Made by a program: the position numbers and the translations under genes. A DNA stretch of 64,000 bases. Origin: Polaromonas sp. (lineage in GTDB: Bacteria > Pseudomonadota > Gammaproteobacteria > Burkholderiales > Burkholderiaceae_C). Under the pieces are notes generated by a model, which was given only the letters and a program-made list of their open reading frames with translations, was not told the DNA's origin and ran no database searches. The DNA lies in NCBI GenBank assembly GCA_013298945.1, contig JAAFJR010000002.1, positions 62,001 to 126,000 of the forward strand, read 5' to 3'. Of this stretch, positions 578 to 54,695 are shown one piece after another (position 1 is the first letter of the stretch; each line of letters begins with the position of its first letter).

Positions 578-1411
578 ATGAAAATCATCGTGACCCGCCC
601 TCGCCTAGAGGCTGATGTTTGGGTCAAGCAATTGCGAGCTTTGAACTTTGATGCCGTTGCGTTACCGTTGATTCACATTGGCGCACCAGCGGATAACGGC
701 GATGTTGCGAAAGCTTGGGAGAGCTTGGATCAATACAGTGCTGTGATGTTTGTGAGTAGTAATGCAGTTCGCTATTTTTACCCTTCAAATATGCCTTTAG
801 CCGGCGTATTTATTGACTCTACAGCTATTAAAAACATAGTAAATTATGGTGAGTCGAGAGCTATGCCTAGAATGTGGGCGACTGGCCCGGGTACACGTGA
901 AGCTTTGTTGGCGCAGGGTGTGCCTAGCGCTTTGATTGTTTCACCTGCTTCAGATGCGGCGCAGTTTGACTCAGAAACGCTTTGGGATATGGTGAAAAGC
1001 CAAGTCAAACTGACTGACAAAGTGCTGATTGTTCGGGGACGCTCGCAAGGTTTGATGCAAGGTTTGATGAACGGTCGCCCTTGGTTGGCTGATCAGTTGA
1101 CGGCAGCGGATGTGCAGGTGGATACTGTGATCAGCTACGAGCGCAGCGCACCTGTGTTTGACGCGGCAGAATTAGCTTTGGTGCGTCAAGCCAGTACAAA
1201 TCAATCCATATGGCTGCTCAGCAGTTCTGAAGCCGTTGCCAATTTGTGCAAGGTGGCGGGCATAGATTCAGGCTTGAACTGGTCAAATGCCAAAGCCATC
1301 GCCACCCACCCGCGCATTGCACAGGCTGCCAGAGAAGCTGGATTTGGTGTTGTTTACGAGTCACGTCCGCTTCTGGCAGATGTGGTGGCTTCTATAGAAT
1401 CTATGCCATGA
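578..1411 (+). CDS. hemD: Uroporphyrinogen-III synthase
   Basis: This 277-residue protein cyclises hydroxymethylbilane to uroporphyrinogen III, the step after HemC. It opens with IIVTRPRLEADVWVKQL, typical of the family, and has FVSSNAVRYF near residue 58. HemD sequences are weakly conserved, so placement directly after hemC is strong support. Residues 73-88 (LAGVFIDSTAIKNI region) are encoded by a copy of the 47-bp dispersed repeat (794-840), an unusual insertion in a biosynthetic enzyme. The stop overlaps the hemX start (ATGA), which suggests coupled translation. Confidence 0.93.
   Translation: MKIIVTRPRLEADVWVKQLRALNFDAVALPLIHIGAPADNGDVAKAWESLDQYSAVMFVSSNAVRYFYPSNMPLAGVFIDSTAIKNIVNYGESRAMPRMWATGPGTREALLAQGVPSALIVSPASDAAQFDSETLWDMVKSQVKLTDKVLIVRGRSQGLMQGLMNGRPWLADQLTAADVQVDTVISYERSAPVFDAAELALVRQASTNQSIWLLSSSEAVANLCKVAGIDSGLNWSNAKAIATHPRIAQAAREAGFGVVYESRPLLADVVASIESMP
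794..840 (+). repeat. 47-bp dispersed repeat, copy 1 (inside hemD, A orientation)
   Basis: The copy carries AGCCGGCGTATTTATTG and then AGCTATTAAAA, matching the consensus over the whole 47 bp without gaps. It is read in phase 0, where the consensus has a TGA stop at bases 25-27. Here that triplet is TCT, so the frame stays open. Confidence 0.85.
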
Positions 1412-3833: not shown

Positions 3834-6424
3834 CACGGCATAAGTTATTTGCAACCCTGTTGGCTTGGGTTGTCGGTACTTGGTTGCAGTTGTTGCAAAC
3901 GCATTTAAATCATACGTATTTTTATGTGACATATATGTCTGTAGCCGCCGTATTTATTGCTTTTATAGCTATAAATAGCGCAGTAAAAATCTCTCAAAAT
4001 TATCGCATTCAAATGCAAACATGGCTGCCAGTTTGTATGCTTTTAGCCAGTGGTTGCGCTGCATTTGGTTTGTCAGGACTGCGTGCAGTTGCTTATGCTT
4101 CACATCAATTGCAGACAGTGTATGAAGGGCGAGATATTGAGGTCATTGGTGTTGTGTCTGCCATGCCTCAACTCAACGACATGGGAACGCGGTTTCAGCT
4201 AGATGTGGAATCCGCGAAATTGTTGAAGAATACACCTTCAAATTCTGAGCAACTACAAAGCAAACAAGTTGTTGTTAAACAAGATGTTCCGCTACCATCC
4301 AAAATTTCACTAAGTTGGTATGGCGGTGTTTTTGGAGTAAATGAAGCGGCTGCTGATATGGGGGTTGAGATGGTTGCATTGCAGCGCAAACCCATGCCTA
4401 TTCTGCCAGGTGAACGCTGGCAAATGACAGTTCGCCTCAAAGCGCCGCATGGCAACCTTAACCCTGGTGGATTTGATTTTGAACTGTGGCTCTGGGAGCA
4501 GGGCATCCAAGCAACGGGTTATGTGCGAACCAGTGCGAGCGATGTTGTTCCCGTGCGAATGACGCAGACCTGGCAGCATCCTGTAGAACAATTGCGCTAC
4601 AAGGTTAGGGATGCAATTTTTGCACGCATGTCCGCTTCAGATTCTTCTCCCAACGTTAACAAGCACTCAAGTGAAGCGGGGATCGTTGCGGCTTTGGTAA
4701 CGGGTGACCAGCAATCAATTGACCGTGCCGATTGGGATATCTTTAGAAACACGGGTGTAGCGCATTTGATGAGCATTTCTGGCTTGCACATCACCATGTT
4801 TGCTTGGGGCGCCGTACTTGTAGTTGGCAGCTTGTATAGATGCTCAACGCGCTTGTGCTTAGCCTATCCAGCGACAAATGCTGCTTTGTTGGGCGGCTTC
4901 ATGCTGGCGACCTGCTACGCAGTATTCAGCGGTTGGGGCGTGCCATCGCAGAGGACGATTTTGATGTTGGCAACAGTAACGATACTAAGGCTCATAGGCA
5001 AACGTTGGCCTTGGCATACGGTATGGATGTTGGCGTGCGTCATTGTGGTCGTGGTTGATCCTTGGGCGTTGCTGCAAGCGGGCTTTTGGTTAAGCTTTGT
5101 GGCAGTGGGCGTGTTGTTTGCTACTGATCTTTCAACCGGTACATCACAACCTACTGGCCACGATCAAAATCATGCCAGCGCTAGTACTACTAATACTAAC
5201 GCATTTTTAAAGCCAAACTTAGTCGCGGCACTAAGGGATAAATTCTGGATGAGTGGTCGTGAGCAGTTGATCATCACTTTGGTACTAGCGCCATTGACGC
5301 TATTGTTGTTTGGTCAAGTGTCTGTGATCGGGCTTGTGGCGAATGCCTTGGCCATCCCGTGGGTAACGCTGGTTGTCACGCCCTTGGCAATGTTGGGCAC
5401 GCTTTTTTCGCCGATATGGGACTTGGCAGGTTTTGCTATTGATGCGCTAAGTCGCTTTCTAGCATTGTTGGCTATATTGCCATTTGCAACTGTGTCCGTG
5501 GCTGTACCACCTGTTTTGATGAGTGTAGTCGCTGTAATTGGTGGTGTACTTTTGGTTCTGCCATGGCCTTGGGCACTGCGCTTGCTTGGGCTTCCTTTGA
5601 TGTTGCCAGTCGTTTTGTGGCAAGCGCCGCGCCCAGCAGAAGGGCAATTTGAAATGATTGCTGCTGATATTGGCCAAGGTAATGCGGTGGTCATACGAAC
5701 AGCACAACACACCTTGGTCTACGACGCAGGGCCGCGTTACTCTGTAGACAGCGATGCTGGTCATCGTGTGTTGGTTCCACTCTTACGGGCGACGGATGAA
5801 AAGCTTGATGCCGTCATGCTCAGCCATCGCGATATTGACCATTCGGGTGGTATTAAATCTGTGCTGTCCATGCATCCAAAAGCAAACTTTATCAGTTCGA
5901 TAGAAAGCACGCATGAGTTGCAATCAATTCGTCGTGCACAGCGTTGTGTAGCTGGGCAAACCTGGCAATGGGATGGTGTTGATTTTGCCGTGCTACATCC
6001 ATCCGCCACAGATTATGATTCGCCACAAAAATCAAATGCTATGAGCTGCGTGTTGCGCATCAGCACGGCACAAACTAGTGTTTTGTTAACTGGCGATATT
6101 GAGTCTACGCACGAAGCTAAGCTGGTTGTAGAAAAGAAAAATCTGAGCAGTACCGTTTTATTAATGCCTCATCACGGCAGCAAAACCTCCTCCAGTGTTG
6201 CATTTTTATATGCAGTTCAACCAGAGATCGCCGTTGTTCAAGCGGGCTACAGAAATCGATTTGGACATCCTGCAGCTAGTGTTTTGGAACGCTACAACGA
6301 GCGTCATGTCAAGGTGATAGATACAGCGCATTGCGGTGCGCTACAGTGGTCAAGCTCTGCACCGAAAGAGACGCGTTGCCAGCGTGAAGTTGGCAAACGA
6401 TATTGGCACCACCAAGTGCCATGA
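3809..6424 (+). CDS. comEC: ComEC/Rec2 DNA-uptake channel protein
   Basis: An 871-residue inner membrane protein that passes single-stranded DNA into the cytoplasm during natural transformation. An N-terminal membrane and OB-like part (about 10-210) is followed by the multi-helix Competence domain with HLMSISGLHITMF near residue 318. A C-terminal metallo-beta-lactamase-like domain (about 620-870) carries SHRDIDHSGG near 671, LLTGDIE and MPHHGSKTSSS near 787. All three parts are present, so the gene looks intact. The start lies 25 bp inside hemY; a later start is possible. The second hydrophobic stretch (residues 44-58) is encoded by a 47-bp repeat copy. Confidence 0.94.
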   Translation: MEKRRTDLTRHKLFATLLAWVVGTWLQLLQTHLNHTYFYVTYMSVAAVFIAFIAINSAVKISQNYRIQMQTWLPVCMLLASGCAAFGLSGLRAVAYASHQLQTVYEGRDIEVIGVVSAMPQLNDMGTRFQLDVESAKLLKNTPSNSEQLQSKQVVVKQDVPLPSKISLSWYGGVFGVNEAAADMGVEMVALQRKPMPILPGERWQMTVRLKAPHGNLNPGGFDFELWLWEQGIQATGYVRTSASDVVPVRMTQTWQHPVEQLRYKVRDAIFARMSASDSSPNVNKHSSEAGIVAALVTGDQQSIDRADWDIFRNTGVAHLMSISGLHITMFAWGAVLVVGSLYRCSTRLCLAYPATNAALLGGFMLATCYAVFSGWGVPSQRTILMLATVTILRLIGKRWPWHTVWMLACVIVVVVDPWALLQAGFWLSFVAVGVLFATDLSTGTSQPTGHDQNHASASTTNTNAFLKPNLVAALRDKFWMSGREQLIITLVLAPLTLLLFGQVSVIGLVANALAIPWVTLVVTPLAMLGTLFSPIWDLAGFAIDALSRFLALLAILPFATVSVAVPPVLMSVVAVIGGVLLVLPWPWALRLLGLPLMLPVVLWQAPRPAEGQFEMIAADIGQGNAVVIRTAQHTLVYDAGPRYSVDSDAGHRVLVPLLRATDEKLDAVMLSHRDIDHSGGIKSVLSMHPKANFISSIESTHELQSIRRAQRCVAGQTWQWDGVDFAVLHPSATDYDSPQKSNAMSCVLRISTAQTSVLLTGDIESTHEAKLVVEKKNLSSTVLLMPHHGSKTSSSVAFLYAVQPEIAVVQAGYRNRFGHPAASVLERYNERHVKVIDTAHCGALQWSSSAPKETRCQREVGKRYWHHQVP
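3938..3984 (+). repeat. 47-bp dispersed repeat, copy 3 (inside comEC, A orientation)
   Basis: The copy reads GTAGCCGCCGTATTTATTGC, then ATAGCTATAAATAGCGCAGT. It is in phase 0, the same phase as in hemD and murJ. The consensus TGA triplet is TTT here. It encodes VAAVFIAFIAINSA, part of a membrane helix. Confidence 0.85.
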
Positions 6425-6441: not shown

Positions 6442-7530
6442 TTATTTACCCATTTGCAGAGCTACTTCGCGCCCCAAATCTATCACAGACATCGCGTAAT
6501 AGCTGCTCCAGTTGTAGCGGGTAATAGTGTAAAAATTTTCAGTCCCAGCCACATAGCTCGGTGCATTGCCAGCAATGCTGGTGTCACCATTTTGCAGCTC
6601 TATCAAGGCCAGTGGGCCCATATGCGCAGCACCAGCAGCATTCAAATTCGCCCCTTTGGCCATGAAGCTGCTAACGCTGAACGTGGGCAAAATGTCGGGT
6701 GCCATCAAAGCATCCATGTCTAATTTTGCTGTGTCAAAAGTAACGGGGTAATGCGTTGGCATGCCTGGCTGCCATTTAAAGGCTTTGAAGTAATTAGCCA
6801 CCGAGCCGATCACATCGGCAGGGCTGGTGAATAAATCGACTTTGCCATCTTCGTCAAAATCAATCGCATACTTTACCCAACTGCTGGGCATGAATTGCGG
6901 CAAACCCATAGCTCCCGCGTAACTGCCACGTGGCGATGTAGGGTCAACACCAGAGCGTGAGGTGAGTGATAAAAAATGTTCCAATTCGCCTTTGAAAAAT
7001 GCTTGTCGTTCAGCCGCGCGAGGATGCGATGTGGGGAAATCAAAAGTCAAAGTCGTCAGCGCATCAATCACCCGATAACTACCTGTATCACGCCCATAAA
7101 TGGTTTCAACCCCAATGATGCCGACGATGATTTCCGCTGGCACGCCATATTCTTTCTCCGCTTTCTCCAAAGCCGCCGCGTTGTCCTGCCAAAATTTAAC
7201 CCCCGCTTTGATGCGAACAGGGTCTATAAACCGGCTGCGATACACCCGCCAGTTTTTGGCAACACCTCTAGGGGCAGGCTGCATCAACCGCGAGATTTGG
7301 CCGATGTTTCTCGCTTGCCCAATCGCGTTACGCACCCACTCTTTGTCTAAATTGCGCCGCTCAGCAATGTCGTTAGCCATTAGCATGGCCTCGGCACGTG
7401 TGGCATAGAGTTCGTACTGTATTGAAGGCTTTATGCTGACCTGTTTTTTTGTTGTATTTTGAGCTGTAGCCGGCATATTCATTGCCTGAATAGCTATAAA
7501 TAAAATAGCAAAAATTAATCTTTGTTGCAT
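6442..7530 (-). CDS. mltB: Lytic murein transglycosylase B
   Basis: A 362-residue periplasmic enzyme that cleaves the MurNAc-GlcNAc bond of peptidoglycan to give 1,6-anhydro ends. The catalytic glutamate is Glu142 in IGVETIYGRDTG, and AMGLPQFMPSSW follows as in the family. The N-terminus (1-23, cleavage likely after PATA) is a signal peptide without a lipobox, so a soluble form is likely. Residues 8-22 of this signal peptide are encoded by a copy of the 47-bp repeat, so the export signal seems to derive from a mobile or repeated sequence. The gene converges with comEC; the stops are 17 bp apart. Confidence 0.93.
   Translation of the reverse strand: MQQRLIFAILFIAIQAMNMPATAQNTTKKQVSIKPSIQYELYATRAEAMLMANDIAERRNLDKEWVRNAIGQARNIGQISRLMQPAPRGVAKNWRVYRSRFIDPVRIKAGVKFWQDNAAALEKAEKEYGVPAEIIVGIIGVETIYGRDTGSYRVIDALTTLTFDFPTSHPRAAERQAFFKGELEHFLSLTSRSGVDPTSPRGSYAGAMGLPQFMPSSWVKYAIDFDEDGKVDLFTSPADVIGSVANYFKAFKWQPGMPTHYPVTFDTAKLDMDALMAPDILPTFSVSSFMAKGANLNAAGAAHMGPLALIELQNGDTSIAGNAPSYVAGTENFYTITRYNWSSYYAMSVIDLGREVALQMGK
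7463..7509 (+). repeat. 47-bp dispersed repeat, copy 4 (inside mltB, A orientation)
   Basis: The copy reads GCTGTAGCCGGCATATTC, then AATAGCTATAAATAAAATAGC, ungapped against the consensus. Relative to mltB it is in B orientation, phase 0, giving AILFIAIQAMNMPATA. This is the hydrophobic core and cleavage region of the signal peptide. Confidence 0.9.
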
Positions 7531-9634: not shown

Positions 9635-10615
9635 TCAATACAAAGCAAGCGCTTGCAGACACAGCTGTTGATGCGCTTCACCGCTGGCTGGAGAAATCTC
9701 AATTTTCGGCAATCGTAGTCCATAAACTAAACCTAGCGATTCCGCTTGCACCACCCAAGCGCAAAGTCTTGAGAGCGAAGCTTCTGCATCTGAACAGCCC
9801 GTGCGTGTAAAATCCAACCACAGCTCTTGTGCAGCAGCATGCTGCATATCACGACTGATCAAATTAACGGAAGGACTGGGGTTATCTGCTTCGATACTCG
9901 CCCAGGTTTTGGCTACTTTTTTCCACACAATGTGTTTCATGGGGTCGCCACGGCGGTAGGCGCGTATGCCGTCAAATTCACCTGTCGCTTTTGTTTGCGT
10001 TTGTTTGGCGTCGCCAGAAAGTGGTTCACCTGCAGGTAAAGCGGGTGCGTTGGGCTCAATAGATGGGTAAACCCACACGTGCATGGCTGGGCGAATAACG
10101 GTCCACACCCTAAACGTACCCATCGGGAAGCGCGTCTCTAACGTCAGTGTTGGTAATCTGTGTTTGCCTCGTGGCATGGGTTCGCCAGCGATTTGAACCG
10201 TGGTACTGCCTTGTGCGGGCACGTCTGCCCACGTCCAATTCGACAGTTTCAAAACACTCAAGCCAATGCCGTGCTTTAAGGTTTTTTGAGCATTGCTTAA
10301 AACCAACTCAAAATTAACTGTATTCGGCGTAAAATATGCCTGAGGCGCTATGATATTAATAGCTATTGCACGAAGATTGGCATGCCCAATATGCATACCA
10401 ACCAACACGCTGCCGCCGATCAAAAACGTCAACAAATAGCCCAAATTCAGCTGGTAGTTGATGCTTGCAACCAATAGCACAAGTAAAGTCACAACCATCA
10501 TCCAACCTGCTTTGGTGGGCAAAATGTACACATTGCGCTGGTTCAAGAGCATGCTGTCGCTCAACGGCGATCTGGCTTCAAACCATTGCTGAAAGCGTTT
10601 ACGAAAAAAGCCCAT
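9635..10615 (-). CDS. DUF58 domain protein (MoxR-associated)
   Basis: A 326-residue protein with two close membrane segments near residues 33-75 and the DUF58 signature FDGIRAYRRGDPMKHIVWKK near 212-231. DUF58 proteins are usually encoded beside MoxR ATPases, and their VWA-like part is thought to be handled by the ATPase. Here the gene sits 20 bp after moxR and just before the transglutaminase gene. Residues 85-99 (AINIIAPQAYFTPNT) derive from a diverged 47-bp repeat copy. Confidence 0.88.
   Translation of the reverse strand: MGFFRKRFQQWFEARSPLSDSMLLNQRNVYILPTKAGWMMVVTLLVLLVASINYQLNLGYLLTFLIGGSVLVGMHIGHANLRAIAINIIAPQAYFTPNTVNFELVLSNAQKTLKHGIGLSVLKLSNWTWADVPAQGSTTVQIAGEPMPRGKHRLPTLTLETRFPMGTFRVWTVIRPAMHVWVYPSIEPNAPALPAGEPLSGDAKQTQTKATGEFDGIRAYRRGDPMKHIVWKKVAKTWASIEADNPSPSVNLISRDMQHAAAQELWLDFTRTGCSDAEASLSRLCAWVVQAESLGLVYGLRLPKIEISPASGEAHQQLCLQALALY
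10317..10363 (+). repeat. 47-bp dispersed repeat, copy 5 (inside the DUF58 gene, A orientation, diverged)
   Basis: The copy keeps CGGCGTA, TGCCTGAG, GCTAT and the final ATAGC at the right spacing over 47 bp. Relative to the gene it is B orientation, phase 0, giving AINIIAPQAYFTPNT, close to the consensus product AINLIAAQAINTPATA. Confidence 0.7.
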
Positions 10616-14562: not shown

Positions 14563-16134
14563 GTGTCACTCCTAAAATCCGCCTCCGTCATCTCCCTGCT
14601 TACCTTGGTATCTCGTATCACCGGCATGGTGCGTGACCAGTTGATGGCGGCCATGTTTGGGGCTTCGGCTATGACGGATGCGTTTAATGTGGCTTTTCGG
14701 TTACCTAATATGTTTAGGAGGCTGTTTGCGGAAGGGGCGTTCAGCCAGGCATTTGTGCCGGTTTTAGGGGCGAGTAAGGTCAAAAATGGGGACGAGGCGA
14801 CCAAGATATTGGTTGACCGCGTCGCCACCGTTCTGTTTTGGGTGTTAGTGCTCACTTGCATCGTTGGCGTTGCCGCTGCGCCCGTGCTGGTGTGGGTGAT
14901 GGCTAGCGGGTTGCAGCAAAATCAGCAAGGGTTTAACGCGGCAGTGTTCATGGCGCGGTGGATGTTTCCTTACATCGGCTTCATGTCGCTGGTGGCGCTG
15001 GGTGCGGGTGTGCTGAACACCTACCAGCGCTTTGCCGTGCCTGCATTCACGCCGGTCTTGCTAAATTTGTCTATGATTTTGGCGGCTTGGCTGGGCGCAC
15101 CGTGGTTCAAAAGTATGGGGGTTCAGCCGATTTACGCCATGGCGATGGGGGTAATTGGTGGCGGCGTGTTGCAACTTGGGATGCAAATGTGGGCGCTGCA
15201 CAAGATTGGGTTTTTGCCAAAAATTCGTGCCAATTGGGCAGATTTCAAAGCTGCTTGGGCAGATGCTGGCGTCAAAAACGTGGCTAAATTGATGCTGCCA
15301 GCGCTCTTGGGCGTGGGCGTGGCGCATATTTCGGCGATTATCAACCTGCAAATCGCCTCGCATTTGACGCCCGGAAGCGTTAGCTGGATGAGCTATGCCG
15401 AGCGGTTGATGGAGTTTCCCACCGCCATGCTGGGAGTTGCGCTGGGCGTGGTTCTGACGCCGCGTTTGGTGGCAGCTAAGGCCAGCGGCGATGATGCCAC
15501 CTATTCCGCCATGATTGACTGGGGGCTGCGTCTGGTAATTTTGTTGGCCGTACCTTGCACCGTGGCATTGCTGCTGTTTGCCAAGCCACTGGTGGCGACT
15601 TTGTTCCATTACGGTGTGTTTACAAACAACGACGTGAATCAAGTGACCACGCCTTTGATGGGCTACGGCGCTGGTTTGATTGGCTTGGTAGCTATCAAAA
15701 TATTAGCGCCTGGGTTTTACGCCAGCCAAGACATCAAAACGCCCGTCAAAATCGCTATTGCGGTGCTTGTCATCACTCAGCTGCTGAATATTGCTCTCGT
15801 TCCAATATTTGCCCATGCGGGTTTGGCGCTGTCGATTGGCTTGGGGGCGTTGATTAACGCGCTGTGGCTGTTGATAGGTTTAATCAAGCGTGGTAGCTAC
15901 CTGCCACTGCCAGGCTGGGGTAAATTCATAATCCAAGTCATCTTTGCCAGCGCCTTACTGGGAGTGTTGCTGTGGTGGAGCGCGGGGTATTTTGACTGGA
16001 CAGCGTTAAGAAGTGATATTTTTAAGAGAATCATGCTTCTAGCCGGCGTATTGATTGCCTCAGCAGCTATATATTTTATAGCATTATTGGTGGCAGGCGT
16101 TAAAATCAAGACTTTGCTAAAAGGGCAAGGTTAA
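14563..16134 (+). CDS. murJ: Lipid II flippase MurJ
   Basis: A 523-residue protein with about 14 membrane helices that moves lipid II across the inner membrane for peptidoglycan synthesis. It begins LLKSASVISLLTLVSRITG with the family RDQLMAAMFG, and has FRRLFAEGAFSQAFVP and KILAPGFYASQD. The start is GTG at 14563, the only start that keeps the conserved N-terminus. The last helix (about 492-506, LAGVLIASAAIYFIA) is encoded by a 47-bp repeat copy. rpsT next door on the opposite strand is the usual arrangement in betaproteobacteria. Confidence 0.96.
   Translation: MSLLKSASVISLLTLVSRITGMVRDQLMAAMFGASAMTDAFNVAFRLPNMFRRLFAEGAFSQAFVPVLGASKVKNGDEATKILVDRVATVLFWVLVLTCIVGVAAAPVLVWVMASGLQQNQQGFNAAVFMARWMFPYIGFMSLVALGAGVLNTYQRFAVPAFTPVLLNLSMILAAWLGAPWFKSMGVQPIYAMAMGVIGGGVLQLGMQMWALHKIGFLPKIRANWADFKAAWADAGVKNVAKLMLPALLGVGVAHISAIINLQIASHLTPGSVSWMSYAERLMEFPTAMLGVALGVVLTPRLVAAKASGDDATYSAMIDWGLRLVILLAVPCTVALLLFAKPLVATLFHYGVFTNNDVNQVTTPLMGYGAGLIGLVAIKILAPGFYASQDIKTPVKIAIAVLVITQLLNIALVPIFAHAGLALSIGLGALINALWLLIGLIKRGSYLPLPGWGKFIIQVIFASALLGVLLWWSAGYFDWTALRSDIFKRIMLLAGVLIASAAIYFIALLVAGVKIKTLLKGQG
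16036..16082 (+). repeat. 47-bp dispersed repeat, copy 6 (inside murJ, A orientation)
   Basis: The copy reads CTAGCCGGCGTATTGATTGC, then CAGCAGCTATATATTTTATAGC, nearly identical to the consensus. It is in phase 0. The consensus TGA is TCA here, which keeps the frame open and gives LAGVLIASAAIYFIA. Confidence 0.92.
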
Positions 16135-21817: not shown

Positions 21818-21819
21818 AT

Positions 21820-21866
21820 GCTATAAATTTAATAGCTGTTAAGGAAATAAATACGCCGGCTACAGC
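21820..21866 (-). repeat. 47-bp dispersed repeat, copy 7 (intergenic, B orientation)
   Basis: The copy reads GCTATAAATTTAATAGCTG, then AAATAAATACGCCGGCTACAGC. It lies between the radical SAM remnant and dnaJ, and is among the closest to consensus. Confidence 0.92.
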
Positions 21867-21871
21867 AATAT

Positions 21872-23014
21872 TCACCCTTTAAAAAAGCCTTTTAACTTGT
21901 CTGCCCAGCTGTCACTGGTCGGCGAGTGCTTGGCACCACCTTTTTTCAGCGATTCGTCAAACTCTTTCAACAACTTGCGTTGATGCTCGGTCAGTTTGAC
22001 TGGTGTTTCAATCGAGATGTGACAGTACAAATCGCCCGGATAGCTGCTGCGAACGCCTTTGATGCCTTTGCCGCGCAGGCGGAATTGTTTGCCCGCTTGC
22101 GTGCCATCGGGAATGTCAATCGCTGCTTTGCCAGCCAAGGTTGGCACGTCGATTTCACCGCCCAAAGCAGCCGTGGTGAAGCTGATTGGCACCGAGCAAT
22201 GCAAATCATCGCCATCACGCTCAAAAATATCGTGCTTTTTCAGGCGAATTTCAATGTACAAATCGCCTGGTGGGCCGCCGTTTGTGCCCGGTTCACCGTT
22301 ACCGGTGGAGCGGATGCGCATATTGTCATCAATACCCGCTGGGATTTTGACTTCCAAGGTTTTGTTGGTTTTGGTTTTTCCCACGCCCATGCATGCAGAG
22401 CACGGTTCAGGAATCAGCTTGCCATTGCCTTTGCAGGTCGGGCAGGTTTGCTGTACGCTGAAAAAACCTTGGCGCATTTGCACTTGGCCATGGCCGTGAC
22501 AGGTGGTGCAACTCACCACTTTGGTGCCTGGTTTTGCGCCGCTACCATGGCAGGTCGTACATTCGTCCCAACTCGGGATGCGAATTTGCGCGTCTTTGCC
22601 GGCTGCCGCTTCTTCCAACGTCACTTCCATGGCGTAGCTCAAATCGCCACCACGGTAGACTTGTCGCCCACCTTGGCCTCGGCCTTGCTGGCGACCACCA
22701 AAAACATCGCCAAAAATATCGCCAAACGCTTCGGCAAAACCTCCAAAACCTTCGCCGCCGCCCGCACCGCCACGCATATTCGGGTCAACACCCGCAAAAC
22801 CGTGCTGGTCATACGCCGCGCGTTTTTGGCTGTCAGACAGCATCTCATAAGCCTCTTTGGCTTCCTTGAATTTTTCCTCTGCTACTTTAGCTGTGTCGCC
22901 TTGGTTGCGGTCAGGATGGTGCTTCATCGCCAACTTGCGATAAGACTTTTTGATTTCTTCTTCAGAAGCGTTTTTCGGGACGCCTAGCGTTTCGTAATAG
23001 TCGCGTTTTGCCAT
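21872..23014 (-). CDS. dnaJ: Chaperone DnaJ (Hsp40)
   Basis: A 380-residue co-chaperone that delivers unfolded proteins to DnaK and stimulates its ATPase. The J domain has the HPD motif in MKHHPDRNQ (about 29-37). A Gly/Phe-rich linker follows, then four zinc-binding repeats: [24 protein letters not shown] and CSACMGVG. The C-terminal substrate domain is full length. It follows dnaK after 166 bp containing a hairpin. Confidence 0.98.
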
Positions 23015-25932: not shown

Positions 25933-25956
25933 CTATTGCCACAGTTTCTATGATTT

Positions 25957-26003
25957 GCTATAAATAATATAGCTATTCAGGCAATAAATACGCCGGCTAG
26001 AGC
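25957..26003 (-). repeat. 47-bp dispersed repeat, copy 8 (intergenic, B orientation)
   Basis: The copy reads GCTATAAATAATATAGC, then CAGGCAATAAATACGCCGG. It lies between grpE and the FKBP gene, just upstream of the heat-shock promoter. Confidence 0.93.
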
Positions 26004-26083
26004 AGTATTTGACCTGCTATTTATTCAATAGTTGATTAAATGGCAGATCAAATGAGGATGCTAGCGAAAAAAATAGCTAAAAA

Positions 26084-29974: not shown

Positions 29975-32068
29975 TCAAGTCGTAGGAACCAGAGACGCTT
30001 CTAACTTTTTACGCCTTTCCACAATCTCTTTGTACTTGGAAAGCATAGTCGGGTCAGCTTTGGCGGCCTCGATCACCTCGGTTTCTAGCGCTTTGAGGCG
30101 GTCAATGTGCATGCGGTTGAGCAGGGCGCGCAGCTCTTGTTGTGCTTCACGTGCCGTACCTTGGGAGCTGGTTTGCGCTTTTGACGCATCGTCCTTGTCG
30201 TCAGTTAAATCGTCTTTATTTTGAACTTCTGCCATCAGCTTCAGCACAAACGGCTCCAACTCGGCGCCTCGCAACCCCTCGCGCAGCGCGCCCCACGGCA
30301 GCGCACCGTGGTCGTGCAGTTGCGCCTCTAGCCAAACAAACAGGGCGCCTGCAGGCGCAGGCTGCTCGCACAGCATGGCGTGGTCATCGTGCGACATAGC
30401 GTCCCACAAGCTCGTTGCGTTGAGCAGCAGCCGCGCCGCATGGTCTGCACGCCCCGTTGGTTGCACGCGACCATGCACGCGGGAAACACCCTCTATGTTG
30501 CCAAATTGAGTGCCAAATTTAGAGCCTGAAAAATGCCCTGAGCCGGCGTATTTATTACCTAAGCTGCTATTATTTTTATAGTAATCTTTTTTCGACGAAA
30601 AACGTTCTACCGGGCTGCCATCAGCGTTGTAGGTTTTCTCGGACTTGAATCCGCTGTTTGAATCGCTGTTGTAGTTGCTGCGGTAGCTACCACCTTCGCC
30701 GTTGTTGCTATTTGAGTATTTCGACTTGCTAGGTGGCAACTTGGCCGCAGCGGCGCTGTCCCAAATCGCGGTTAACTCACGGGTGCTGAGCTGCACCAAA
30801 TCGGCAATCTCGCCCAGTAATTGCCGCTTCAACGCCCCTTCTGGCATGGCTGACCACAACGGATTCGCATTACTGGCTAGGCGCGAGCGGCCTTCCATGG
30901 TGTTCAAATCGCAGCCTTCGCGGGCTGAATCAATCAAAAAGCGCGACAGCGGTGTCGCCTCGCTCACGTAGCGCGAAAACGCCTCTTTGCCAAACTCGCG
31001 GATAAAGCTGTCGGGGTCGTGCTCAGCGGGTAAAAACAAGAATTTGATGTTGCGTACATCCGTCGCAAACGGAATCGCCCCGTCCAAAGCCTTACGCGCC
31101 GCGCGTCGCCCCGCAGCGTCGCCGTCAAAGCTGAAAACGACAGCATCGGTGAATCTAAACAGCTTTTGCACGTGGTCCGTCGTGCATGCCGTGCCCAGCG
31201 TCGCCACCGCGTTGGGAAAACCCAGCTGCGCCAGCGCCACCACGTCCATATAGCCCTCAGTCACCAGCGCGTAGCCGTGTTCGCGTAAGTGAGTACGCGC
31301 TTCAAACAGCCCATACAGCTCGCGCCCCTTGCTAAAAACCGGCGTTTCGGGCGAGTTGAGGTATTTTGGTGTGCCCTCAAACAGCACCCGCCCACCAAAA
31401 CCAATGCATTCGCCTTTGACATTGCGAATCGGAAACATCATTCGGTCGCGGAAGCGGTCGTATCGTTTTTCGGTCGATTTATCCCCATCGCCAGATTCAT
31501 TGTTGGTAATCACCAAACCGCTCTCCGCCAGCAGCGGATCATCGTAATTCGGGAACACGCTCGCCAAGCTGCGCCAGCCCTCAGGCGCATAGCCCAAGCC
31601 AAACTGCTTGGCAATCTCGCCACTCAGCCCACGACCTTTGAAATAATCAATCGCTTTAGGCGAGTTTTTCAGGTGTTTTTTGTACGCATCACAGGCTTTT
31701 TCCAAAACATCCGTCAGCGTCGCCTGCTTTTGCCGTTGCTCTGCGGCTCGTGCGCGGTCTTGCGGCGAACCTTCTTCCTCAGGCACCTGCATGCCGTACT
31801 GCTGCGCCAAATCCTTCACCGCCTCCACAAAGCTCATGCCCCCGTGATCCATCAAGAAACTGATCGCATTGCCGTTCTTCCCGCAGCCAAAGCAATGGTA
31901 AAACTGCTTGGCAGGGCTGACGCTGAACGACGGCGACTTCTCCCCATGGAATGGGCACAGCCCCATAAAGTTAGCTCCCCCCTTCTTCAGCTGAACATAC
32001 CGCCCCACGATGTCAACGACATCAGCGCGGGCGATGAGTTCTTGGATGAAGGATGCGGGGATGGCCAT
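29975..32068 (-). CDS. dnaG: DNA primase
   Basis: A 697-residue primase that makes RNA primers at the replication fork. The N-terminal zinc domain has CPFHGEKSPSFS and YHCFGCGKNG (about 38-65). The catalytic core has GFGGRVLFEGTPKYLNSPET, TEGYMDVVALAQLGFPNAVA and VVFSFDGDAAGRRAARKAL (TOPRIM acidic residues). A Ser/Asn/Gly-rich linker (about 450-530) separates the core from the DnaB-binding C-terminus; it carries a copy of the 47-bp repeat (residues 496-510). The linker site suggests insertion where structure tolerates it. rpoD follows. Confidence 0.97.
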   Translation of the reverse strand: MAIPASFIQELIARADVVDIVGRYVQLKKGGANFMGLCPFHGEKSPSFSVSPAKQFYHCFGCGKNGNAISFLMDHGGMSFVEAVKDLAQQYGMQVPEEEGSPQDRARAAEQRQKQATLTDVLEKACDAYKKHLKNSPKAIDYFKGRGLSGEIAKQFGLGYAPEGWRSLASVFPNYDDPLLAESGLVITNNESGDGDKSTEKRYDRFRDRMMFPIRNVKGECIGFGGRVLFEGTPKYLNSPETPVFSKGRELYGLFEARTHLREHGYALVTEGYMDVVALAQLGFPNAVATLGTACTTDHVQKLFRFTDAVVFSFDGDAAGRRAARKALDGAIPFATDVRNIKFLFLPAEHDPDSFIREFGKEAFSRYVSEATPLSRFLIDSAREGCDLNTMEGRSRLASNANPLWSAMPEGALKRQLLGEIADLVQLSTRELTAIWDSAAAAKLPPSKSKYSNSNNGEGGSYRSNYNSDSNSGFKSEKTYNADGSPVERFSSKKDYYKNNSSLGNKYAGSGHFSGSKFGTQFGNIEGVSRVHGRVQPTGRADHAARLLLNATSLWDAMSHDDHAMLCEQPAPAGALFVWLEAQLHDHGALPWGALREGLRGAELEPFVLKLMAEVQNKDDLTDDKDDASKAQTSSQGTAREAQQELRALLNRMHIDRLKALETEVIEAAKADPTMLSKYKEIVERRKKLEASLVPTT
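30536..30582 (+). repeat. 47-bp dispersed repeat, copy 9 (inside dnaG, A orientation)
   Basis: The copy reads GAGCCGGCGTATTTATTACC, then GCTGCTATTATTTTTATAGT. Relative to dnaG it is B orientation but in a different phase from most genic copies, giving YKNNSSLGNKYAGSG, a polar linker rather than a hydrophobic segment. Confidence 0.88.
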
Positions 32069-32290: not shown

Positions 32291-32334
32291 TTGGGGGTGA
32301 GCGGGGGAAACAAGCCAATCAACATAATTAAATT

Positions 32335-32381
32335 GCTATAAATAAAATAGCTGCTCAGGCAATAAATACGACGACTAGAGC
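32335..32381 (-). repeat. 47-bp dispersed repeat, copy 10 (intergenic, B orientation)
   Basis: The copy reads GCTATAAATAAAATAGCTG, then CAGGCAATAAATACGACG. It lies 35 bp downstream of the ggt stop. Confidence 0.92.
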
Positions 32382-32415
32382 TATAAAAAGCCCTAAAAAT
32401 AGCCTAAATCAAGGT

Positions 32416-34326: not shown

Positions 34327-34344
34327 TTTTACCCCTCAAATATG

Positions 34345-34391
34345 ACTCTAGCCGGCGTATTTATTGCCTGAGTAGCTATGAAATTTATAGT
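34345..34391 (+). repeat. 47-bp dispersed repeat, copy 12 (intergenic, A orientation)
   Basis: The copy reads CTAGCCGGCGTATTTATTGC, then GAGTAGCTATGAAATTTATAG. It lies 18 bp upstream of the ggt start, where promoter elements would be expected, so it could affect ggt expression. Confidence 0.93.
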
Positions 34392-34558
34392 GATTTCGAG
34401 CAATCTATTCTACTTGCAAGTGAGATGTTTAGATATAGCTTTCTTATAAGGTTGATTTTTATATGTCTAATTAATTATATCAATCTAATTTAATATGATT
34501 TTACAATCTATTAAATTTTAGCCATCATGCATTCATTTGCATGAAAAAGGTGACCGTA

Positions 34559-38630: not shown

Positions 38631-38657
38631 GTAGATAATAAAATAAGTAGAAAAAAG

Positions 38658-38704
38658 GATATAGCCGGCGTATTTGTTGCCTGAGTAGCTATTAAATTTA
38701 TAGT
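38658..38704 (+). repeat. 47-bp dispersed repeat, copy 13 (intergenic, A orientation)
   Basis: The copy reads ATAGCCGGCGTATTTGTTGC, then GAGTAGCTATTAAATTTATAG. It lies between the patatin stop and the shared terminator. Confidence 0.93.
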
Positions 38705-38740
38705 AAATAGTTGCAACGCTTGTTTGCCGAAACCCCATAA

Positions 38741-42401: not shown

Positions 42402-43694
42402 TTATCTTCTGCGTTCATCTTGCGCACCTGCCCATTTTTGCTGCCCTTGTGCGCTGGCAATGTAGGCTTCCATGAGTTTTGTAGGGTCAGCCTTGAGGTG
42501 GTTTTTCCATTCGCCCAGTTTGACTTTGCCTTCCACCAAACCACGCATCACGCCCACATGTTCAGTCCAACCAACGCTGTTGCAGCCTACCAGTACATCG
42601 TCTTTGAACTGTAAGCTCAGGTGTTTACCCTTCTTGACGTCAGTTAGTTCAACGTGCTCGCCACCAGGTTGGCCTTGCCAATCACCAAAGCTGGTTGAAA
42701 TCAAACCTAGCGTATCTAACACATTGATTTGTGTAACGCCTTTGAGTTCAGCTTGCATGGCTTTACCACGGCTACTAGCTACCATATTCATACCAGCAAC
42801 ACGCGCTTGCTCTGCAGCATTCGGTTGAATAGCGCTCACAATCGTTTTGCCAGTGACTTTGTCGAAAGCTTCGGCACAATCACCTGCTGCAAAAATACCC
42901 AGCACATTGGTTTGCAAATGCGCGTCGGTCAGTACGCCCAATAAGCAAGTAATGCCAGAGTCCTTCAAAAAACCAATGGCAGGGCGAACCCCTGCTGCGC
43001 TGATGACCAAATCAGCCTCTACAGTTTTGCCGTTGCTTAGCTTCACTTTTAGGGGTGTTCCGGCTTCAATAGATTCAACTTTAGTCGCAGTAAAAACTTC
43101 TACGCCCTTACTTTGCACCCAATTCCGAATCATGCCACCCGCCGTTGGTCCCATCATGCGTGGCACCATGCGGTCGCCCATTTCTACAACGCTGAGTTTG
43201 ACGCCACGCGCTGCAAGTGCTTCCATGATGATGCAGCCGATGAAGCCAGCACCTAATTGCAACACCCGCGATCCTTTGTTAGCAAGCACCATGATATGAC
43301 GCGCATCTTCCATGGTCCAGCAGGTGTGTACGCCTTTCGAGTCAATGCCAGGAATAGGTGGTTTGATGGGGTGAGAGCCTGAAGCAATCAACAAAGTGTC
43401 AAAAGTAACTTCTATGCCTGAGTTTAATGCTATTTTTTTTGTAGCTGTTTCAACTTTATTTACGCCGGCTACAACCCAATTCACATGCAGTGATTTGAGG
43501 TGATCTGGATTTTTGCGTAAATACGTGCCATCCTCCTGCACATTGCCAATCAATAAATACGGAATGGCCATGCGCGAGTAAGCGGGCACGGCCTCATCAC
43601 TGATGATGGTGATATTGTCGTACGGTGCTTGCTTGCGTATGGTTTCAGCGGCGATAACGCCGGCGGGGCCACCGCCGATGATGACGTGATGCAT
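42402..43694 (-). CDS. aorC: FAD/NAD-dependent oxidoreductase subunit of aldehyde oxidoreductase
   Basis: A 430-residue flavoprotein of the NADH-rubredoxin/nitrite-reductase-like class. It has FAD site GGGPAG (7-12), NAD site LQLGAGFIGCIIMEALAARG with VVEMGDRMVPRM, and the second FAD motif GIFAAGDCAEAF. In AOR complexes of the Aromatoleum type the flavin subunit couples aldehyde oxidation to NAD. Here it lies 15 bp after aorB. Residues 74-89 (VVAGVNKVETATKKIA) come from a 47-bp repeat copy. Confidence 0.88.
   Translation of the reverse strand: MHHVIIGGGPAGVIAAETIRKQAPYDNITIISDEAVPAYSRMAIPYLLIGNVQEDGTYLRKNPDHLKSLHVNWVVAGVNKVETATKKIALNSGIEVTFDTLLIASGSHPIKPPIPGIDSKGVHTCWTMEDARHIMVLANKGSRVLQLGAGFIGCIIMEALAARGVKLSVVEMGDRMVPRMMGPTAGGMIRNWVQSKGVEVFTATKVESIEAGTPLKVKLSNGKTVEADLVISAAGVRPAIGFLKDSGITCLLGVLTDAHLQTNVLGIFAAGDCAEAFDKVTGKTIVSAIQPNAAEQARVAGMNMVASSRGKAMQAELKGVTQINVLDTLGLISTSFGDWQGQPGGEHVELTDVKKGKHLSLQFKDDVLVGCNSVGWTEHVGVMRGLVEGKVKLGEWKNHLKADPTKLMEAYIASAQGQQKWAGAQDERRR
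43429..43475 (-). repeat. 47-bp dispersed repeat, copy 14 (inside aorC, B orientation)
   Basis: The copy keeps GCTAT, GTAGCTG and TTTACGCCGGCTACAAC at exact spacing over 47 bp. Relative to aorC it is A orientation, phase 0. The consensus TGA triplet is GAA here. Confidence 0.82.
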
Positions 43695-47734: not shown

Positions 47735-47750
47735 ATACTGGTTAATATTC

Positions 47751-47797
47751 ACTATAAATTTAATAGCTGCTTAGGCAATAAATACGGCGGCTACAGC
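47751..47797 (-). repeat. 47-bp dispersed repeat, copy 15 (intergenic, B orientation)
   Basis: The copy reads ACTATAAATTTAATAGCTGC, then TTAGGCAATAAATACGGCGG. It lies between the antiporter stop and the 2-hydroxyacid dehydrogenase start, followed by CCATTTTTACCC, which also follows or resembles the flank of several other intergenic copies. Confidence 0.93.
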
Positions 47798-47826
47798 CAT
47801 TTTTACCCATTAATTAAGCAATATAT

Positions 47827-53486: not shown

Positions 53487-54695
53487 TTAGCCGTTTTTCT
53501 CTGCAAAAGCGATGAGCTTGGATGCCAAATCAGCTTGCAAACGCAGCTTGTTGCTTAATTTTTCAGCACTTTGTTTCCAAGTTAGTAGGTCAAGCTGTGG
53601 AAAGCTAGGCAAGTTGGGGTTGTTTTCACGCTCCAAAGCCGATGCATTCCACGCTATAAGCGCGGTTTTCAGCGACGCTGGTGCTTCCATCATCTGCAAA
53701 AACGCATCCAGCTTGGCATGATGCGCCCCGTCGTGCTGCGGGTAAATCTGCCAAATAAATGGTTTAGTCGCCCAAATGGCGCGAATCAAGGAGTCCTCAC
53801 CCCTTACAAAATTCAAATCGCAGCTCCACAGCAAGTGGTCAAAATCGAGTTGAGTTAGCTGCGGAATATATAAAATTGATAGCTGCTTAGGCAATAAATA
53901 CGTTGGCTGTAGGCGTTTTTTATGCTCTAGAAGAGCTTTTACAGCAGCGCTAGCTCGTCCTGCGGTGACAAACAAGCAAGACGGCATTCCGTGGGTTGAG
54001 AGCTGGTCAATCAAGACTTCTAATGCAGCGGGTTCATAGCAAAAAAGCGAAATGTAGGTCGTTGTGTCACTGAATTCGAGTTGGTTTTGGGCTAAAAACG
54101 GCGTCAGCCAAACCTGCCGGTCAAACCCCTTTTGCCGCTCCAAAAGATCGTTTTCCCGCAGCAATCCACCTGTTTTTGCCGTAAATCCTGGGTAAAAATA
54201 GCGCTGCGTCCAACCCTTAGCCGCGCCGCTGTGGTGCACATAGGGCAGGGTGTGGGCGCGTTCGGCGAACGATTCAGCCGTCAAATACTCCAAATTCAAC
54301 CAAACTGGCTGAATAGTCGATTTTATATGCTCAAATTGGCCTCTAGCCGGCGTATTTATTGCTTGTATAGCTATTAAATTAATAGCAAATTCACAATCAA
54401 AGGTATCTACCAATACGTCGCCTAAAGTGTAATTTTGATCGCTGGGTAAGTCTTTTTTTAAACCATGTTGGCAGTCAATCACCTCTACATTGGCGTGTCC
54501 ATTCGGCGCCATCCAAGTCAGTGGCGATACATCATCCACCCACAGCCGCACCCGTTTGCCCCGCGCCGCCAAATTACAAGCCAGTCGCCAGCAAACCCCA
54601 ATGTCGCCAAAGTTGTCGACAACGTTGCAGAAGATGTCCCAGTTTAATTGGGGTGAGATGGGCTTTGGAGCGGATTCCATCCCTAGATTGTCCAC
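53487..54695 (-). CDS. earP: EF-P arginine rhamnosyltransferase EarP
   Basis: A 402-residue glycosyltransferase (GT-B like) that moves rhamnose from TDP-rhamnose to the loop arginine of EF-P. The N-terminus has NWDIFCNVVDNFGDIGVCW with the catalytic Asp region, and the C-terminal half has LNFVRGEDSLIRAIWATKPF and QHDGAH. It is 88 bp upstream of efp. Unusually it contains two copies of the 47-bp repeat, encoding residues 104-118 (AINLIAIQAINTPAR) and 262-276 (LQPTYLLPKQLSILY region). The frame is open throughout, so it is likely functional. Confidence 0.95.
   Translation of the reverse strand: MDNLGMESAPKPISPQLNWDIFCNVVDNFGDIGVCWRLACNLAARGKRVRLWVDDVSPLTWMAPNGHANVEVIDCQHGLKKDLPSDQNYTLGDVLVDTFDCEFAINLIAIQAINTPARGQFEHIKSTIQPVWLNLEYLTAESFAERAHTLPYVHHSGAAKGWTQRYFYPGFTAKTGGLLRENDLLERQKGFDRQVWLTPFLAQNQLEFSDTTTYISLFCYEPAALEVLIDQLSTHGMPSCLFVTAGRASAAVKALLEHKKRLQPTYLLPKQLSILYIPQLTQLDFDHLLWSCDLNFVRGEDSLIRAIWATKPFIWQIYPQHDGAHHAKLDAFLQMMEAPASLKTALIAWNASALERENNPNLPSFPQLDLLTWKQSAEKLSNKLRLQADLASKLIAFAEKNG
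53867..53913 (-). repeat. 47-bp dispersed repeat, copy 16 (inside earP, B orientation)
   Basis: The copy reads ATAAAATTGATAGCTGC, then TTAGGCAATAAATACG and TTGGCTGTAGG. Relative to earP it is A orientation, in an unusual phase, giving LQPTYLLPKQLSILY. Confidence 0.88.
54340..54386 (+). repeat. 47-bp dispersed repeat, copy 17 (inside earP, A orientation)
   Basis: The copy reads CTCTAGCCGGCGTATTTATT, then ATAGCTATTAAATTAATAGC. Relative to earP it is B orientation, phase 0, giving AINLIAIQAINTPAR, nearly the consensus peptide. It is inverted relative to copy 16, 427 bp away. Confidence 0.93.

Follow-up and report, generated by a model that had tools for sequence, protein, structure and literature searches.

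The mltB locus and a repeated motif

The window, the whole 64,000-nucleotide stretch of Polaromonas sp. DNA that was analyzed, carries on its minus strand the lytic transglycosylase gene mltB, whose product begins with the 23 residues MQQRLIFAILFIAIQAMNMPATA. An initial annotation had proposed that the core of this signal peptide is encoded by a dispersed repeat, and a profile search with nhmmer located a copy of the motif in the corresponding codons (Table 1). The segment AILFIAIQAMNMPATA is indeed spelled by the repeat, with the correction that it comprises residues 8–23 rather than 8–22. The annotation was also right that EarP carries a close peptide from the repeat, EFAINLIAIQAINTPARG. The earP gene (53487–54695, minus strand, PF10093) holds two copies, in different frames.

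The iterated profile gave 17 matches in the window at E < 0.01, counting one (54369–54436) that overlaps a copy on the other strand, and a larger model gave 16. The comEC copy looks similar by eye in locus L009 and is weak in L010/G001 (E 0.011).

Table 1. Position, strand and supporting evidence of mltB and of motif copies in the window
Feature	Position	Strand	Evidence
Copy in mltB signal-peptide codons	7457..7511 (7461–7511 with larger model)	+ (gene -)	nhmmer E 1.7e-14
mltB, lytic transglycosylase; signal peptide MQQRLIFAILFIAIQAMNMPATA, cleavage by eye before QN	6442..7530	-	ORF, PF13406 SLT_2; N-terminus matched in L009, L010
hemD copy (AGVFIDSTAIKNIVN)	784..842	+	profile; PF02602
Weaker copy in ORF after hemD, hydrophobic segment	1530..1574	-	profile, gene calls
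comEC copy	3927..3985	+	profile; PF03772
Copy in minus-strand gene (AINIIAPQAYFTPN)	10307..10364	+	profile; kept gap-free in L010
Copy within ORF (LLAGVLIASAAIYFIA)	16027..16083	+	profile, gene calls
Copy at ORF edge	21819..21877	-	profile, larger model
Intergenic copy	25955..26015	-	profile, larger model
Copy within minus-strand ORF	30523..30584	+	profile, gene calls
Intergenic copy	32333..32385	-	profile, larger model
Intergenic copy	34334..34392	+	profile, larger model
Intergenic copy	38650..38705	+	profile, larger model
Weaker copy within ORF	43428..43482	-	profile, gene calls
Intergenic copy, top score in window with larger model	47750..47808	-	profile, larger model
Second earP copy, other frame	53869..53924	-	profile, larger model
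earP copy (AINLIAIQAINTPAR)	54329..54388	+	profile

Abundance and sequence of the motif

Two 400-kb stretches of the same genome (G000) were sampled together with the window, making up 864 kb of 3.07 Mb. The iterated profile found 189 copies of a motif of about 55 bp in this sample (E < 0.01), or one per ~4.6 kb, whereas a single first-order Markov sequence of equal length (864 kb) contained none. The dyad GCTATN7ATAGC occurs 317 times in the whole genome, against 2 occurrences of its reversed control. The repetition seen in the window is beyond chance on both counts, and extrapolation suggests roughly 670 copies in the whole genome.

The consensus from the sample is AATATGGCTGTAGCCGGCGTATTTATTGCCTAAGCAGCTATTAAATTTATAGCAA, and that of the G000 dialect is GCCgGCGTATTTATTGCCTaAgcAGCTAT. 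Conservation extends over 40–55 bp, including the 17-bp dyad. The information content was 51 and 65 bits, the end columns being inflated by local alignment. The columns are nearly independent, with a highest mutual information of 0.16 bits, and thus give no sign of subfamilies. RNA structure was rejected as the basis of the motif: compensatory changes in the dyad stem were not in excess, and a comparison of the window with Rfam at the gathering score matched only a tRNA, the motif having no Rfam match.

Dialects at shared positions

Copies were scored with the dialect model of each genome, by which mixed forms may be missed. The first 800 kb of contig C1 of G102, a relative in another genus, contains 230 copies at E < 0.01 with the consensus GCCGGCaTAgAatCTGCGCaaagTGCTAttaAatt.aTAG; its dialect reads GCCGGCaTAgAatCTGCGCaaagTGCTAt. 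The genome of locus L027 (Variovorax sp. PCZ-1) gives identical matches. Eighteen coding copies of G000 could be compared with G102, and for 10 of them the aligned codons of G102 hold a copy in the G102 dialect and in the same orientation, while for 8 they do not; random placement gave a mean of 0.17 shared positions and never more than 2 in 1000 trials. HemD is an illustration: the codons that hold the hemD copy of G000 carry a G102-dialect copy in G102.

Dialects also differ within the genus, column 36 being A in 84% of the copies of G000 and 81% of those of G001, whereas G002 has T there in 83%. G001 keeps a copy at 26 of the 28 testable sites (one of the others is weak and one has been replaced by other DNA), and G002 keeps 3 of only 5 testable. 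Between G000 and G001, the 26 pairs of orthologous copies share 82% identity and their flanks 83%, so that single copies change about as fast as their surroundings and appear to be under no strong constraint. Copies within G000 are 73% identical to each other. A genome-wide dialect of Acidovorax was recognized only by eye in the loci, where a profile run gave 5 sequences.

Location of copies in genes and gaps

Of the 189 copies, 101 lie between genes, 69 fall entirely inside called ORFs and 19 overlap ORFs in part, in a sample that is about 90% coding. Genes were called with a simple script, which started mltB at an internal ATG (7482), and the mltB copy was accordingly tallied as partial. Orientation was biased on contig C1 (61:37, p 0.02), with ratios of 36:39 on C11 and 9:7 in the window.

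Two reading frames account for 59 of the 69 coding copies. Their peptides, AGVFIAxxAIKxIA and AINLIAAQAINTPA, are both small and hydrophobic, and the latter frame is shared by the MltB and EarP peptides compared above. The sole frame of the consensus that is free of stops (CYKFNSCLGNKYAGY if translated) is used by 5 of the 69. Protein compatibility rather than stop codons therefore seems to set where copies are tolerated. The corresponding two frames hold 99 of 124 coding copies in G102. Since the second frame falls on the hydrophobic signal core of MltB, this signal is spelled in the letters of the motif and varies with the dialect. A general role of the repeats as a source of signal peptides was ruled out, because the first 40 codons hold only 3 of the 69 coding copies, against an expected 12%.

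Intergenic copies are densest in convergent gaps (3.33 per kb), followed by co-directional (1.33) and divergent ones (0.45). Such a preference would suit a binding site for a chromosome-organizing or regulatory protein, selected at each place, with dialects arising by co-evolution; the conserved positions, the coherence of the dialects and the resemblance of the 17-bp dyad to the site of a dimer point the same way. The ~50–65 bits of the motif, however, lie far above the ~13 bits that we estimate to be needed for ~670 sites in 3 Mb, and the presence of copies in many unrelated genes, in protein-compatible frames, suggests tolerance rather than local function. We regard the binding-site explanation as rather unlikely.

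A single stretch of 42 kb on C11 of G000 (179957–222259, from the end of locus L117 to the start of L120) has no copy at E < 0.01. Its genes include those for a 2681-residue cadherin/Ig adhesin, type I secretion, a Tle1-like phospholipase domain and a Mu/rve transposase. It is probably an acquired island, which fits the practice of finding acquired elements from DUS distributions (PMC7371117). Copies of the present dialect also occur on two viral contigs from IMG/VR, three (one partial) on L259 and one on L260; these could be host flanks or misassigned contigs.

Probable substitution rather than insertion

Among 134 reciprocal best-hit pairs between G000 and G102 (at least 40% identity), 18 copies could be placed, one with a footprint truncated at the gene start. 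All 18 showed between 0 and 7 gap columns per 18-column footprint and never a gap of the size of the motif. Coding copies thus look substituted rather than inserted, and insertion of a mobile unit is disfavored for them. The conclusion that USS are not insertions was reached by a comparable examination of gaps in protein alignments (PMC1626085). At C1 343235–343283 the entire segment of ~55 nt differs between G000 and G002 at equal length, with flanks that are 87% and 78% identical. As a counter-case, the copy at C11 349969 lies opposite a 13-residue gap in G002 that spans about half of it.

The occurrence of concerted dialects at fixed sites could also be ascribed to ectopic gene conversion, which would homogenize the copies of each genome without any uptake bias. 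Nevertheless, short and divergent sequences are poor substrates for RecA, and the copies are of this kind, with an identity of only ~73% within the genome. Conversion alone also makes no new copies by substitution at unrelated sites, of the kind found at C1 343235–343283. This explanation is considered quite improbable.

The mltB copy in relatives

The start of mltB was compared using one fixed stretch per locus, at 80 loci of the family Comamonadaceae and 28 of other families. The family loci were the best 80 of 546 relatives and are biased toward near ones; of the six peptides used as queries, one comes from the signal peptide itself. An in-frame copy with at most two mismatches to the 10-letter dyad was found in the signal-peptide codons of 59 of the 80 family loci, the window's own locus (L209) having no mismatch. 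The remaining 21 include L055, whose exact dyad lies in a frame other than that of its alignment. At the other-family loci, 1 of 28 had such a copy in frame, at exactly two mismatches; irrespective of frame, 4 loci (the same one included) reached two mismatches and none had fewer.

The mltB copies of the window and of G102 each follow the dialect of their own genome. The window copy scored 47.3 bits with the own-dialect model, in whose training set of 177 it was included, and 11.7 bits with the G102 model, whereas the G102 copy (L027), from a locus outside the stretch that trained the G102 model, scored 34.2 bits with the G102 model and 15.7 with the own model. Scores with the own and G102 models, in that order, were 46.7 and 16.0 bits for L010, 25.9 and 2.8 for L009, and 24.8 and 35.7 for L065. 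The Acidovorax copy in L071 was poor in both (16.7 own, 18.0 G102). In the 22 Acidovorax mltB loci, the rare codon ATA accounts for 33 of the 350 codons that surround the closest dyad match, compared with 3 of the remaining 6968 (Fisher p 4e-41), an enrichment which argues that the DNA, and not just the peptide, has been kept.

The initial annotation had suggested that a dispersed repeat supplied or replaced the export signal of MltB. Supply by an ordinary mobile repeat inserted in mltB accords with the coincidence of the signal-peptide core and the motif copy. Two motif-free relatives speak against it: L075 (Caenimonas) with AILFLAAGA and L083 (Ramlibacter) with AILFVAAAA show almost the same signal residues, spelled with different codons, and have no near-dyad in their loci. 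This is what the annotation itself had named as contrary evidence, and an origin of the signal in the repeat is not required, although these two loci may also reflect loss of an older copy. Moreover, a hydrophobic N-terminus is seen by eye in many of the MltB proteins from other families, conservation of the mltB site extends across the family with dialects that differ, and other coding copies align at near equal length. Donation by a mobile repeat is thus largely refuted and very improbable. Replacement, taken as overwriting by substitution, is consistent with the data. The best reading is that the motif did not donate the MltB export signal but apparently wrote over one already present, in the genome-wide dialect.

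Twenty-six of the 59 in-frame mltB copies encode a lipobox-like IAAC, IASC, VAAC or FVAC, with the cysteine coming from a TGC or TGT of the motif, where the window's genus has CAG (Gln). As a lead from these codons, a dialect shift could alter the anchoring of MltB.

Distribution among genomes and the Y1 gene

Of 120 genomes of the family, 40 carry between 12 and 317 exact dyads and the other 80 at most 7, the reversed control reaching at most 6. Of 150 genomes drawn from the order, 145 belong to other families and contain no more than 10 dyads each (reversed control up to 24), by which a spread beyond the family was rejected; the 5 family genomes in the draw comprise 3 with at least 24 dyads, one with 7 and one with none. 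The own-dialect model, used with stricter filters, matches in 7 of the 120 family genomes at E ≤ 1e-6.

G000 has ComEC, an ORF with an HHH_3 domain of the ComEA type, and DprA, all of them widespread and unspecific. ComEC was considered as a discriminator and proved uninformative: it is present in 117 of the 120 family genomes and so does not separate motif-bearing from motif-free ones. In G006, which has 48 dyads, the comEC match falls into three adjoining pieces (C1 1836740–1837544), and G040, with 41 dyads, has no ComEC match. Both are low among the motif-rich genomes and too few for a conclusion.

A single-copy gene of G000 (C1 192220–192918, equivalent to L098:12220–12918) encodes a Y1 protein, IS200-like and of the RAYT type. 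The large gene downstream was read as gltB from its translation. REPs are mostly extragenic palindromes, and the present motif shares with REP/RAYT systems a short, dyad-bearing repeat and a Y1 protein common in the same genomes. The motif might accordingly be a REP-like element moved by the Y1 transposase. Y1 is present in 37 of the 40 motif-rich genomes and in 52 of the other 80 (p 0.0009), and a motif copy follows its stop codon in G000, G001 and G124. Nevertheless, Y1 is not a constant companion of the motif, with no match in G021 (235 exact dyads), G063 (36) or G087 (13; absent from the matches). The gene is flanked by dyads of its own, of the GGGTCAGA..TCTGACCCC type, in many of 20 loci, including those of all 3 motif-poor genomes among them. 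Nor is the motif extragenic in location, its copies being frequent in coding sequence (69 of 189 wholly inside ORFs and 19 partly), and motif-sized gaps are absent in the comparison with G102. Movement by Y1 is therefore judged improbable.

Comparison with known repeats and uptake sequences

No description of the motif was found among the papers listed in literature searches by names and by sequence fragments of the G000 and G102 dialects and of an Acidovorax-like form, with most subscription journals outside the coverage.

The BRE of Bordetella is likewise dispersed, is reported also from Polaromonas, Acidovorax and Rhodoferax, and is usually intergenic with some copies in genes. It differs in being ~90 bp long, 69% GC in Bordetella and often tandem, and its authors counted no more than 29 in any genome, whereas the present motif is AT-rich with hundreds of copies. 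The comparison is with the published description in PMC3110155.

Closer likenesses are found among uptake sequences. According to PMC1626085, the USS of Pasteurellaceae (Hin and Apl types) have many copies in and between genes, a clade-specific consensus and flanking AT-rich tracts, and arise by substitution and not by insertion, all of which recalls the present motif. They differ in having a 9-bp core at ~1 per kb, as against 40–55 bp and ~1 per 4.6 kb. The uptake of USS has been demonstrated by experiment, whereas the Comamonadaceae motif is a candidate uptake signal, in another family and with another sequence. The DUS of Neisseriaceae are alike in that dialects follow the core-genome tree, copies lie in permissive coding regions, most dialects have a stop codon in one frame and some species have dyads, as reported in PMC3630211. 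They are shorter, at 10–12 bp, and have a named specificity factor, ComP.

Features expected of DUS and USS and observed here are over-representation, an apparent origin by substitution, clade dialects at shared positions and competence machinery, the last being unspecific. Also expected are a lack of orientation bias, in which C1 and C11 differ, and scarcity in acquired islands, of which the 42-kb stretch would be a single case. A core of 9–12 bp is not among them, the motif being conserved over 40–55 bp.

Proposed mechanism and significance

By analogy with these systems, the best mechanism would be a drive like the one proposed for DNA uptake sequences, although the motif here is much longer. 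A candidate uptake receptor would prefer motif-bearing DNA and so bias import. Recombination after biased import would restore and spread the motif, as has been argued for DUS and USS, and a changed specificity of the receptor would move every site to the new dialect at once. We place at even odds the proposal that 7457–7511 is one copy of a ~55-bp motif spread mainly by substitution and recombination and driven by biased import. Counting against the uptake reading, the motif is 4–5 times longer than known uptake cores and its density is lower. On the same side weigh the strand preference on C1, the association with Y1, the failure of ComEC to separate genomes by motif content, the similar divergence of copies and flanks, the 13-residue gap in G002 and the 8 G000 copies that lack a G102 counterpart. 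The broader proposal, of a third and independent uptake-sequence system in Comamonadaceae, with a long motif (40–55 bp, 17-bp dyad) and a drifting dialect that rewrites many proteins in parallel, the MltB export signal among them, is possible and is put forward tentatively.

If the motif is an uptake signal, self-preferring natural transformation would characterize a large environmental family, a subject on which no paper was found in our search, and its many dialects would be available for the study of co-evolution between receptor and motif. Even without an uptake mechanism, the motif is a clear case of a drive at the level of DNA that shapes proteins throughout the genome in a coordinated manner, down to a signal peptide.
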